From positions 7,998,001 through 8,062,000 of the forward strand of contig OY754467.1 of the NCBI GenBank assembly GCA_963575645.1: 64,000 nt of DNA. The letters are read 5' to 3'. Position numbers and translations under genes: made by a program. The DNA comes from Xanthostigma xanthostigma. Lineage: Eukaryota; Arthropoda; Insecta; Raphidioptera; Raphidiidae. This document shows positions 9,301-59,055 of the stretch, one piece after another (positions within the stretch are counted from its first letter, which is position 1; the number at the start of each line of letters is the position of its first letter). Below the pieces are notes generated by a model. That model was not told where the DNA came from. It did no database searches and was given only the letters and a program-made list of their open reading frames with translations.

Positions 9301-10000
9301 TTTATTTCTAAATTGTTTAATTTTTTTTTTTGTGTTTTAACACAAACAATAATATTTGTTAATAAATGACGTATGAATAACTTTTTTTAAACTAATTTGT
9401 ACGTCAAATCAGTTGACATCAGAACGTAAAACGAGTATTCAACAATTTTACCCACGTATCGTTTAATAATAGCGTTCAAACAAGTGATTAAATTACAAGG
9501 AAACGATCTGACCGCATATAAAAAGATTTTCTAAACATTAAAAGTCTTTCATTAATAAATTAATTGATACCTTTGTATGGTAAATATCTCTAGTATTTTG
9601 TTGCTAATAAGCAGTTTTGAGTGATATTCTCTGACTGAAGGAATTGCCTTTTTCTCTCTTTTTTTCGTATAATAGACCAACAAAATGTATCATCTTTTTC
9701 AAGATTGCTCCTTGCGTCATTTTTTTAACTTCTTAGTTTTGGTATAATAAGTTTATTAGAGTCCAGTACGATAACTCGATGTGCCCAAATTTTGACTTTT
9801 TTTAAGTCATAGAAAACGCTACATTTTGACGTTCAAAAAAAAAAACTGCGGATTATTCACAAATTTCCTCAAAAATACGTAAAAACTGTTTGTCTTGCAG
9901 TGTAATTTTTTTAATCTATTCAATCAGAAATCACATATAGGTACACGTCATAAAAATTGGTGTACAATTACTGTATTAGATACTATCTCAGTTTCTATAC
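9301..10000. other. No gene seen
   Basis: AT-rich, apparently single-copy within this window. No coding frame, RNA gene or repeat was recognised. Confidence 0.4.
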
Positions 10001-10402
10001 ACCACCCTGTAATTGTTTTTTAAAGAATTCCCCCCAAACACCCTCCCCTTTTCACTGCTCAAAAAAAAACGCCATCGCATCGACACGACCCCGTTATTGT
10101 TTTTTAAAGAACTCCCCCCAGACGCCTTACCCTTTTCACTGCGCAAAAAAAACGCCATAGCATCGACACGACCCCGTAATAGTTTTTTAAAGAACTCCCC
10201 CCATACGCCTTCCCCTTTAACTACGCCAAAAAAAAATGCCATAGCATCGACACGACCCCGTAATTGTTTTTTAAAGAACTCTCCTCAGACGCCTTCCCCT
10301 TTTCACTGCACCAAAAAAAACGCCATAGCATCGACACGACCCCGTTATTGTTTTTTAAAGAACTTCCCGTAAACGCTATTCCCTTTTTACTGCGCAAAAA
10401 AA
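10001..10402. repeat. 84-bp minisatellite, about five units
   Basis: Units of 83-84 bp each contain TTTTTTAAAGAACTCCCCCC, CCCTTTTCACTGCGC and CATCGACACGACCCCGT. Unit starts are visible at 10086, 10169, 10253 and 10337. The open frame 10013-10372 only reflects the repeat and drifts between units. The same family is at 58745-59055, with scraps at 20935-21010 and 34100-34215. Confidence 0.85.
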
Positions 10403-29397: not shown

Positions 29398-30190
29398 CTA
29401 GCGGTCCCGTCCGGTTTCACCCGGGTGCAAAAGAACGAATGGGGAAGGGAGGGACATGAGTAAGCACATTCATCTTAGATTACCGAGACAAATGTTGGGT
29501 CCAAATTTTTTGCAGTTTTTGGCAGTTTCCTGCTTTATTACTTATTTTGAACTCAAACCTCCATTTTTGATGAAAATATTTTTTATAAGTAATAATTATT
29601 TATTTTAAATCAATAATTACTGTATAATTAATAAAATATAATAAATATTTAATTGAAAACACTGTAGGAAAATTATTTTTATATATTATAGGTACTGTAA
29701 TAGTTTTCAAATGAGCTATTATTTAGATTTATTTAATTTTAATTAGTCGTAAATAAAACTAAAATAAATTTAAATGATAGCCTTAGAAGGAAGCAATTAA
29801 GAAAATTAAAAAAAAAAAACATTAAAAACATATTCGTACAAGGTGGGGCTCGAACCCACGACCCTGAGATTAAGAGTCGAGCGCTCTACCGACTGAGCTA
29901 ACCGAGCTTCTGTACGTGTGGCGCTAATATTGGGATATTCAGTTAGGGCATTTCACCTGAATATAATTATATCGTGAAAAATTTTGACTGACATTCTGAC
30001 ACATTTTTCATTGATTTTCCGCTCCTATTAGTCGTAGCGTGATATTATATAGCCTATAGCCTTCCTCGATAAAATGGGCTAACCATCAAAAAAATTTTTT
30101 TTCAATTCGAACCAGTATAGTTCCTGAGATTAAAGCGTTCAAACAAACAAACAAACAAACTCTTCTGCTTTATATAGGTATTAGTATAGA
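29398..30190 (-). mobile_element. Helitron with tRNA-Lys-like cargo, copy H2
   Basis: Read on the minus strand it begins TCTATACTAA (30190 downward) and ends CTAG (29398-29401), lying between A and T. The tail, GGGTGAAACCGGACGGGACC, can form a short CCGG/CCGG hairpin before CTAG. The same family occurs at 41632, 45003 and 48725, each with a tRNA-like insert at the same place. Confidence 0.8.
29835..29907 (-). tRNA. tRNA-Lys(CTT)-like sequence in a Helitron
   Basis: The 73-nt minus-strand sequence has an A box (TAGCTCAGTCGG), an anticodon arm with CTCTTAAT giving CTT (lysine), and a TΨC arm, GTGGGTTCGAGCCCCAC, that pairs fully. The acceptor ends (GCTCGGT versus TTGTACG) do not pair, so it is probably not processed as a tRNA. 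It is the best preserved of the four Lys-like modules. Confidence 0.7.
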
Positions 30191-48724: not shown

Positions 48725-49346
48725 TCTATACTAATATATAAAGCTGAAGAGTTTGTTTGTTTGTTTGTTTGAACGCGCTAATCTCAGGAACTACTGATTC
48801 AAATTGAAAAAAAAAAATTTTTTTGATACCCCATTTATCGAGGAAGGCTGTAGGCTATATAATATTACGTTACGACTATTAGGAGCGGAGCATTAATGAA
48901 AAATGTTGCAAAATGTATCTCAAAAATAAGCTTCTATTCATGTGAAATGCACTAACTAGATATACTCATATTAGCGTTCAGAGAACGCGACTCCAGGTGG
49001 CTCAATCGGTAGAGCATGCGACTATCAAATCTAATATCAGGGTCGTGGGTTCGAGCCCCACGTTGGGCGAATATATTTTTATTTTTTTTTTATTTTGTAC
49101 ATTGCTTTCTTCTAAGGCTTACATTTAAATTTATTTTAATTTTATTTAAATAATTAAAAAAATTATTAGTTAAAAAAAGTATAAATACTGCTTTTTATCG
49201 ACAAAAACTTTTGAACGGTAACTCCGATCATCATGAAATTTGGACACAGCATTCATCTCGGTAAACTAAGTTGAATGTGTGTACTCATGTTTCTCCTTTC
49301 CCCATTCGTTCTTTTACACCCGGGTGAAACCGGACGGGACCGCTAG
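48725..49346 (+). mobile_element. Helitron with tRNA-Lys-like cargo, copy H6 (reference copy)
   Basis: TCTATACTAATATATAAAGC at the start, preceded by A; CCGGACGGGACCGCTAG at the end, followed by T. Order of parts: GTTTGTTTG tract, GGAGCGGAGCATTAATGAAA block, tRNA-like block, AT-rich stretch, TTTTGAACGGTAACTCCGAT block, terminal CCGG hairpin. Non-coding. Confidence 0.85.
48989..49069 (+). tRNA. tRNA-Lys-derived sequence in Helitron H6
   Basis: A box TGGCTCAATCGG and a fully paired TΨC arm GTGGGTTCGAGCCCCAC, ending CGTTGGGCG like tRNA-Lys. About 8 extra bases (CAAATCTA) in the anticodon region destroy the anticodon loop. Confidence 0.55.
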
Positions 49347-49504
49347 TAGATAATAATCGACATAGCTGCTAAAAACAGAAAACAAAAAACCAACGATACA
49401 AAAACAATGTTAGTTAGTTCAGCTCTGCATTTCGTGGAACTATTAATACGTTCGACTATCGTTTATAGACGTACAGGCAAGTAGTAGTCTCAGTTATAGA
49501 GGTC

Positions 49505-49888
49505 CAAAACTATAAAATTTAGAAAAAAAATTCTTAACAAAATTTTCTTGAAAAAATAAGTAAATAGAATAATAAACGGTAATGAAAAGTATACAATTAT
49601 ATAAAAAACAACGTTATAGCATATGTCTGTTTTGCGCATGCGCCGATTTTCCCCAAAAGTAATAGGCCTCTCCATATTTGCGTATCAAACATCCTCTCAA
49701 AATTTTATTTCAATCCGTTCATCCGTTTGACCTGTATCGTGTTCACAGACTAACAGACACACGGAGTTTTCTTCTAAAAATATGTTTTTTGGATTCGAGG
49801 AACCTCAAAACGAAAAAGTATTGTAAAATTTTGAAAAGCGTATTTTGACCTAAACTTGTACCATTCCCCAGTTGTGGGTTGGAATGGT
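49505..49888 (+). mobile_element. HP element, copy F (3' part)
   Basis: Collinear with copy B from about TATAAAATTTAGAAAAAAA to the terminal hairpin CCATTCCCCAG...GGAATGG at 49861-49887. That hairpin is also the first 27 bp of the 150-bp satellite that follows. Confidence 0.85.
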
Positions 49889-51510
49889 AAAATTAATCAG
49901 AAGGAAAGCACCAGAGGATACGATCGGCGGAACCTGACAGACAGTATTTCTGTTCTTAACCGCCACGGAATAAGCTAGCTGGGTTAAGCGACTCACGCTT
50001 AGCACGATCTCCATTCCCCAGTTGTGGGTTGGAATGGTAAAATTAATCAGAAGGAAAGCACCAGAGGATACGATCGGCGGAACCTGACAGACAGTATTTC
50101 TGTTCTTAACCGCCACGGAATAAGCTAGCTGGGTTAAGCGACTCACGCTTAGCACGATCTCCATTCCCCAGTTGTGGGTTGGAATGGTAAAATTAATCAG
50201 AAGGAAAGCACCAGAGGATACGATCGGCGGAACCTGACAGACAGTATTTCTGTTCTTAACCGCCACGGAATAAGCTAGCTGGGTTAAGCGACTCACGCTT
50301 AGCACGATCTCCATTCCCCAGTTGTGGGTTGGAATGGTAAAATTAATCAGAAGGAAAGCACCAGAGGATACGATCGGCGGAACCTGACAGACAGTATTTC
50401 TGTTCTTAACCGCCACGGAATAAGCTAGCTGGGTTAAGCGACTCACGCTTAGCACGATCTCCATTCCCCAGTTGTGGGTTGGAATGGTAAAATTAATCAG
50501 AAGGAAAGCACCAGAGGATACGATCGGCGGAACCTGACAGACAGTATTTCTGTTCTTAACCGCCACGGAATAAGCTAGCTGGGTTAAGCGACTCACGCTT
50601 AGCACGATCTCCATTCCCCAGTTGTGGGTTGGAATGGTAAAATTAATCAGAAGGAAAGCACCAGAGGATACGATCGGCGGAACCTGACAGACAGTATTTC
50701 TGTTCTTAACCGCCACGGAATAAGCTAGCTGGGTTAAGCGACTCACGCTTAGCACGATCTCCATTCCCCAGTTGTGGGTTGGAATGATAAAATTAATCAG
50801 AAGGAAAGCACCAGAGGATACGATCGGCGGAACCTGACAGACAGTATTTCTGTTCTTAACCGCCACGGAATAAGCTAGCTGGGTTAAGCGACTCACGCTT
50901 AGCACGATCTCCATTCCCCAGTTGTGGGTTGGAATGGTAAAATTAATCAGAAGGAAAGCACCAGAGGATACGATCGGCGGAACCTGACAGACAGTATTTC
51001 TGTTCTTAACCGCCACGGAATAAGCTAGCTGGGTTAAGCGACTCACGCTTAGCACGATCTCCATTCCCCAGTTGTGGGTTGGAATGGTAAAATTAATCAG
51101 AAGGAAAGCACCAGAGGATACGATCGGCGGAACCTGACAGACAGTATTTCTGTTCTTAACCGCCACGGAATAAGCTAGCTGGGTTAAGCGACTCACGCTT
51201 AGCACGATCTCCATTCCCCAGTTGTGGGTTGGAATGGTAAAATTAATCAGAAGGAAAGCACCAGAGGATACGATCGGCGGAACCTGACAGACAGTATTTC
51301 TGTTCTTAACCGCCACGGAATAAGCTAGCTGGGTTAAGCGACTCACGCTTAGCACGATCTCCATTCCCCAGTTGTGGGTTGGAATGGTAAAATTAATCAG
51401 AAGGAAAGCACCAGAGGATACGATCGGCGGAACCTGACAGACAGTATTTCTGTTCTTAACCGCCACGGAATAAGCTAGCTGGGTTAAGCGACTCACGCTT
51501 AGCACGATCT
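49861..51510. repeat. Satellite array: eleven 150-bp units
   Basis: Exactly 11 units of 150 bp. Each starts CCATTCCCCAGTTGTGGGTT (the HP terminal hairpin) and ends CTCACGCTTAGCACGATCT. I see one base change between units (GGAATGATAA in the seventh unit, at 50787). The other 123 bp are not HP sequence. Because 150 is divisible by 3, an uninterrupted minus-strand frame of 591 codons (49850-51625) crosses the array as eleven 50-residue repeats. I regard that frame as a by-product, since the repeat has no recognisable domain and includes transposon hairpin sequence. Confidence 0.95.
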
Positions 51511-51748
51511 CTCTCAGCATATATCTTGGGTAGTAAACGGTGGGGCACCTAGGCTCCGACCGGCAGCGCGGCATAGCGTGTTGGTGGACTGCACTTGGGT
51601 CTTGGGTATGGTCTACAAAATACATCTACGCGTCCACCTGTTGCTCGAGATGCGTACACTGGCCCCAGTCTCACCGACTGAGTTGATATAGTCGAGCGCC
51701 GAACGCCTTCGACTCCTTCCGAATCAATTGGCTTTTTTGACTCCTATT
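51511..51748. other. Single-copy flank of the satellite
   Basis: Continues from the satellite unit at GATCTCTCTCAGCATATATC and has a GC content unlike the surroundings. This suggests that the satellite unit body and this flank were once one unique sequence. The minus-strand frame of the array begins in here. I recognise no gene. Confidence 0.4.
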
Positions 51749-51897
51749 ACCATTCCAACATCGCAAATGTCGGCGAGTGGTACCTACTAATTTAGGCCAA
51801 AATTCACTTTTCAAAATTTTACATTATTTTTTCGTTTTTAGGTCACCCGAAACGAAAAAACATATTTCTGGAAAAAGTCTGTGTATCTGTTTGTCTG
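51749..51897 (-). mobile_element. HP element, copy G (3' end only)
   Basis: TACCATTCCAACATCGCAAA, a variant of the hairpin arm, then TTTAGGCCAAAATTCACTTT collinear with other copies, cut at 51897 by the R repeat. It faces copy F across the satellite. Confidence 0.7.
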
Positions 51898-58744: not shown

Positions 58745-59055
58745 AATCAGAAATCACATATACTCCCCCCAAATACCCTCCCCTTTTAAATGCGCAAAAA
58801 AAACATCATCGCATCGACACGACCCCGTTATTGCTTTTTAAAAACTCCCCCAAAACGCCCTCCCCTTTTCATTGCGCAAAAAAAACCCTTCGCATCGACA
58901 CGACCCCGTAGTTAATATTAAAGAGCTCCCCCCCAGACTCCTTCCCCTTTTCACTGCGCAAAATAAAACGTCATCGCATCGACACGACCCCGTAATTAAT
59001 TTTTAAAGAACTCCCCCCAAACGCCTTCTCCTTTTCACTGCACAAAAAAATTTAT
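58745..59055. repeat. 84-bp minisatellite, about four units
   Basis: Same unit as 10001-10402 (CATCGACACGACCCCGT, CCCTTTTCACTGCGC), with units of about 80-84 bp. Confidence 0.85.

Follow-up and report, generated by a model that had tools for sequence, protein, structure and literature searches.

Minisatellites can arise by ordinary local tandem duplication, through slippage and unequal exchange, a route outlined also in the review PMC12628747. How satellites begin has mostly to be inferred from arrays that are already old and shuffled. Satellite arrays internal to Helitron or Helentron elements, such as 154TR and the oyster Cg170/HindIII repeat, are described in the portion of the review PMC12628747 drawn on here, which also reports, after Xiong et al. 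2016, that truncated plant Helitrons form tandem arrays, many of them with several 5' ends but one 3' end. HINE/DINE-1 elements, as characterised in the relevant part of Thomas et al. 2014 (PMC4067079), carry a subTIR 2-4 nt from the 5' end, a 5' inverted repeat, a palindrome near the 3' end and Ts at their boundaries; for mite HINEs the same part of the text places the 3' subTIR 38-60 nt from the end.

Here we describe a tandem array that opens at the hairpin of such an element and consists mostly of the DNA beside it. The array lies in a stretch of 64,000 nucleotides (C4:7998001-8062000), hereafter the window, from the 623-Mb, 28-contig genome assembly of Xanthostigma xanthostigma. Both breakpoints can still be read, as can the repeat unit, the neighbouring DNA from which it came and the flank that continues it, so that the first step of duplication can be examined directly.

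Results

Structure of the array

A unit of 150 bp is repeated head to tail 11 times between two oppositely oriented ends of HP, a non-coding element abundant in the genome, as a first, sequence-only reading of the locus had recognised. The features are as follows.

49503..49892, minus strand: HP copy F, putative 5'-terminal ~390 bp of a HINE-like element (self-BLAST)
49859..49889, unstranded: palindrome (palindromic subTIR) of F, with a 9-bp stem TACCATTCC..GGAATGGTA; first of 11 hairpins
49861..51510, plus strand: tandem array, 11 x 150 bp (TRF, 11.0 copies, 99% matches; unit comparison)
49893..50010, unstranded: host-derived 118 bp of unit 1 (other HP copies stop at GGTAAAA)
50787: sole variant base of the array, G>A, the final base of the 27-bp hairpin in unit 7
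51511..51746, unstranded: single-copy DNA running on from the last unit
51747..51897, plus strand: HP copy G, putative 5'-terminal ~150 bp of a diverged HINE-like copy (self-BLAST, inverted-repeat search)

Unit-by-unit comparison bears out the single base change in 1,650 bp noted at the outset, and with it the view that the array is very young or has been homogenised; an older array could look young through homogenisation. Every unit opens with the 27-bp hairpin. Elsewhere HP runs past the hairpin to ..GGTAAAA, so the unit divides into 32 bp of HP element and 118 bp of host sequence, in place of the 27 and 123 bp first proposed. The unit was also thought to begin at the exact base of the hairpin. 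It does begin at the hairpin, but 2-3 bp inside the 9-bp stem of F, the 1-bp uncertainty arising from a 1-bp microhomology shared by the breakpoints.

Of 200 dinucleotide shuffles, 195 fold less well than the whole unit, whose hairpin is present in both the MFE and the centroid DNA folds. A minus-strand ORF of 591 aa crosses the array (window 49850-51625). It is not notable, an open periodic frame occurring also in 35% of shuffled units, and a coding array was rejected; Rfam and ARAGORN gave no match inside the array.

Other repeats are present in the window. Two arrays with a similar unit of 82-84 bp lie ~48 kb apart, at 9999-10402 and 58762-59050. At 49000-49352 a tRNA-like sequence is followed by a repeat ending ..GGGACCGCTAGT, presumably a canonical Helitron 3' end from its appearance, with relatives near 29.1-29.8, 42.0-42.4 and 45.5-45.8 kb. 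For tRNA-like stretches ARAGORN reported none and Rfam one tRNA, at 29835-29907.

Source of the repeated flank

When the 113-bp body of the unit (49898-50010) was compared with the genome by a search that skips the most frequent genomic words, 11 matches reached E <= 0.001, every one in the array. A two-unit query gave 45 matches among those listed (the best 40 of 230 candidates scored), of which five lie in the array and 40 are short matches, ~34-50 bases from the unit start, to HP ends elsewhere. The right flank (query 51500-51760, 261 bp) matched the genome once, at itself. The body matching only the array and the flank only itself point to a local source, and hence to amplification of host DNA at one locus. 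The genome search that the sequence-only reading had suggested led to this locus alone, and the old, widespread satellite existing without HP ends, which that reading had named as grounds for abandoning its view, was ruled out by the confinement of the body to the 11 units of one array.

In the search the repeat formed a single 1,650-bp array rather than the large or dispersed arrays expected of satellite DNA, and its body was found at one locus rather than at many copies of an element, as a satellite carried inside Helentrons would be. A repeat internal to HP was likewise ruled out, since HP copies stop at GGTAAAA, or at a close variant of it, and diverge beyond that point. Local tandem duplication by slippage or repair should draw on neighbouring DNA and leave one junction with scarcely any homology, and both features are seen here.

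The host DNA concerned is a stretch of ~350 bp between the facing ends of F and G, of which the first 118 bp have been amplified along with 32 bp of F. Its GC content is 49% (49895-50010) and 54% (51511..51746), against 34% in the window. Pfam searches in six frames of 51361-51662 gave no match up to E = 1.

Anatomy and polarity of HP

HP is ~660 bp long and spans AAAAAATTCCAGCCAATTGGGCGACGGGACCATTCCAAC to ACCATTCCCCACTTGTGGGTTGGAATGGTAAAA, as judged from the boundaries of 25 hand-bounded copies. With copy B as query, the genome yielded 6,966 first-look candidates (best 40 scored), and the exact 27-bp hairpin occurs 2,421 times in the genome, 10 of them in the array, where a reversed control pattern occurs 0 times. 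End statistics were taken from 24 hand-bounded copies out of 33 loci, nine being excluded as incomplete, rearranged or not bounded. An exact 11-bp subTIR is present at the hairpin end in 21/24 copies, at the opposite end in 20/24 and at both in 19/24, so that HP carries the matching subTIRs of at least 11 bp at both ends that are expected of HINEs. The subTIR at the hairpin end lies 4 nt from the terminus in 20 of the 21 copies with an exact subTIR there and 2 nt from it in one, and the hairpin itself is recognised by a strict pattern in 16/24. Towards the other end the subTIR lies 28 nt from the terminus in 15 of 20 copies (range 26-33), and a short palindrome, CCAATTGG, is found near that end in 18/24. 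The HP consensus has T-runs at both termini; on the strand opposite to that of the boundary sequences given above, a T-run and the subTIR that makes up half of the hairpin come first. The longest matching flanks measure 1-5 bp in 22/24 copies, with matches of 8 and 9 bp at two AT-rich sites, as compared at free offsets in the insertions themselves.

These ends reproduce the terminal layout of HINEs (5' subTIR at 2-4 nt, 5' inverted repeat, 3' palindrome and T-runs), and this structure supports assigning HP to the rolling-circle (Helentron/HINE) type. From the published layout we infer that the hairpin is the 5' (initiation) end of HP. The sequence-only reading had treated the hairpin as the 3' end and terminator, and had found the array to be as expected had a rolling-circle element failed to stop there and copied its flank. 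The rolling-circle affinity stands; the failed terminator is not supported, because the order of features fits the HINE layout only with the hairpin as the 5' end, and the read-through model thereby loses its premise.

Loci with a Rep domain were searched for elements with the same ends. The genome holds 89 matches to the domain and, among open frames, seven of 2,103-2,509 aa. Fifteen matches tie at 205.7 bits and have stop-free open frames of 1,555 aa, a pattern suggestive of recent activity by canonical Helitrons. No Rep-bearing element with HP-type ends was found among seven Rep loci with partly read flanks. HP-like stretches occur in four of the seven (C10:6.8 Mb, C10:32.6 Mb, C2:56.1 Mb and C3:51.0 Mb), upstream of Rep in the C10 pair and downstream of it at the C2 and C3 loci. 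All four run in one sense, that in which the hairpin end would fall downstream of Rep. This speaks weakly against a 5' polarity of the hairpin, weakly because two of the four loci are copies of one element.

The HP-like stretches look nested or truncated rather than like the loci's own ends. In the C10 pair the common sequence extends beyond the HP start, to the limit of the sequence compared, and at locus L081 the HP-like stretch has a degraded hairpin end (18/26 bases; 0/5,000 shuffles reach the alignment score), so that the C10 stretch looks nested. The same alignment test did not place a hairpin end at L091, and no HP hairpin was seen at the common 3' boundary of the C10 pair. The C2 stretch, downstream of a long Rep ORF (L086, C2:56150500-56154000), has its internal part repeated about three times and looks like a truncated, internally repeated HP copy; that at C3:51.0 Mb covers 48 bp only.

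A different array accompanies one Helitron-like family. At all four of its loci a tandem array of a ~265-273-bp unit lies 6-14 kb downstream of the Rep domain:

C3:36867458, Rep locus; array at C3:36856057-36861443
C2:24574571, Rep locus; array at C2:24581215-24584939
C3:16975554, Rep locus; array at C3:16982213-16986197
C1:60108002, Rep locus; array at C1:60114765-60121605 (L084)

In a genome search this repeat was found nowhere outside the four loci. Pieces of it are 96-99% identical within the C3:36.86-Mb locus and 71-87% identical to those of the others. It is an element-associated pattern, present with each copy, and the 150-bp array is of another kind.

Age of the flanking copies

Copy F, which reads leftwards from its 5' end at 49892, begins at ~271 of the HP consensus in alignments of F and copy B. 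It has lost ~270 bp from its 3' end and is presumably immobile now. It differs from the consensus at 37 of 384 aligned sites, part of which distance may reflect subfamily difference because the consensus was built from the copies nearest one query. Copies A to E in the window differ by 3-10%, so F is an ordinary old copy. Copy G faces F, carries the exact 11-bp subTIR ACCATTCCAAC and meets another repeat at 51897/51898 (self-BLAST); the inverted arms of F and G are 92 nt long and 83% complementary.

With F diverged and the array almost unmutated, the array formed long after F inserted, unless it has been homogenised. On that condition it is not a by-product of the transposition of F, and the comparison of 37/384 changes with 1/1,650 is at odds with copying of the flank when F transposed.

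Search for further arrays at HP ends

Exact hairpins with neither of the preceding TA bases number 16 among the 2,421, comprising nine array units and seven single places. The other scan, which looked for breaks lying a few bases deeper and does not catch the array under study, found 94 places, none <600 bp from another. The two scans cover exact hairpins and, on the assumption of equal base frequencies, ~56% and ~42% of random junctions; within these limits neither revealed a second array of this kind genome-wide. The 100 hairpin places listed are all from C1 and include one pair on the same strand less than 1 kb apart (L074/L075).

Of 63 HP loci fetched, 62 were checked by TRF over the 800 bp outside the hairpin, one (L046) having no recognisable end; L066/L067 and L074/L075 overlap, and L021 is inside the window. 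The sequence-only reading had proposed looking for tandem flanks at other HP copies, and none of the 62 loci has an array of flank abutting its hairpin. L038 and L068 have repeats beginning 727 and 157 bp from the hairpin. Recurrent arrays at HP ends are thus unsupported by the two limited scans and the 62 loci, and within those limits the array is a single event.

Some HP copies adjoin other HP sequence (L027, L035 and L074), and at L079 one HP appears to have inserted into an older one. At L074/L075 (C1:7697546-7698218) two HP ends of the same orientation stand 646 bp apart, a full copy abutting one that aligns over 451-663 only.

Discussion

Our results probably reflect a single event, replication slippage or a template switch where copy F ends in its palindrome, followed by expansion through unequal exchange. 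The palindromic 5' end of F would fold when single-stranded, and a nascent strand, in replication or repair, may have left its template just after copying the palindrome and resumed 150 bp back with 1 bp of microhomology. Such a restart would duplicate 32 bp of the element and, with them, 118 bp of flanking host DNA, and unequal exchange or repeated slippage could then have expanded the duplicate to 11 near-identical units. One event cannot prove a role for the hairpin; by a rough estimate, chance alone would place a breakpoint equally near one or other landmark of F in perhaps a few per cent of cases.

Helentron-driven re-initiation, in which a Rep/helicase acting in trans would nick the intact 5' end of F and abortive starts without a terminator would copy flank and hairpin, is unlikely. 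F does offer a perfect 5' palindrome with the far end gone, and the genome has open frames with a Rep domain, of which seven measure 2,103-2,509 aa. The plant Helitron arrays, many of them with several 5' ends and one 3' end, are explained by loss of the terminator in the portion of PMC12628747 drawn on here, but as described there they repeat sequence of the element, where the present unit is mostly outside flank. The seven partly read Rep loci yielded no Rep-bearing element with HP ends, and the limited scans no second array. That a Helentron replication protein supplied in trans repeatedly primed synthesis of the flank at the 5' palindrome of F, and so seeded a satellite from single-copy DNA, we regard as decidedly unlikely.

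Near-identical head-to-tail units with one fixed junction, and its 1-bp microhomology, would equally be expected had a 150-bp extrachromosomal circle of flank and hairpin been amplified by rolling-circle replication and the concatemer recombined into its own locus. This account is unlikely, and the genome search found no second insertion site of the unit body. Multiplication of one unit by an assembly or sequencing artefact is very improbable, as the assembly has 28 contigs with the window inside one of 54.7 Mb, the 1.65-kb array is short enough for one long read to span and unit 7 is marked by its own substitution.

Replication reading past a 3' terminator and repeatedly copying the flank, for which the rolling-circle structure of HP, the units beginning at its hairpin and, weakly, the four of seven Rep loci whose HP-like stretch puts the hairpin end downstream of Rep might be cited, deserves scarcely any credence, since the hairpin matches the 5' end of HINEs in the part of PMC4067079 drawn on here, the C10 stretches look nested with a degraded hairpin end retained at L081, the array is far less mutated than F and the opposite end of the element is absent from the units.

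A slip at the palindrome followed by unequal exchange thus remains the preferred reading, and the array is a neat specimen of satellite birth, not evidence for a new mechanism. A unit composed of hairpin and flank need not mean that a transposon made it, and claims of read-through in Helentron-like elements require the polarity of the ends to be settled beforehand. A limited search of titles and the beginnings of abstracts in the open literature found no mention of tandem flank copies beginning at the hairpin of a Helentron.

With HINE/DINE-1-like elements HP has in common an 11-bp palindromic subTIR set 4 nt in from the 5' terminus, its counterpart and then a short palindrome towards the 3' terminus, boundaries marked by T-runs and perhaps the lack of a consistent target-site duplication. 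It differs from mite HINEs in that its 3' subTIR lies mostly 28 nt from the end, against 38-60 nt in the part of PMC4067079 drawn on here. The array itself stands outside the element, unlike the central repeat of HINE/DINE-1-like elements. Like the internal satellites of Helitrons and Helentrons it is a tandem array edged by Helentron-type sequence, and for Cg170 the same portion of PMC12628747 notes arrays bordered by Helitron parts on just one side; as described there, however, such satellites spread with their element family, whereas the body of the present unit occurs at one locus only. Truncated plant Helitron arrays, so far as that portion of the review describes them, resemble it in having repeated 5' ends and a missing 3' end, if the polarity of HP is right, and differ in that the unit here joins 118 bp of host flank to 32 bp of element at a single locus. 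As in ordinary local tandem duplication, the copied DNA is local, the units are nearly identical and their single junction shows 1 bp of microhomology; what sets the array apart is that one breakpoint lies no more than 2-3 bp from the base of a palindrome belonging to a transposon.
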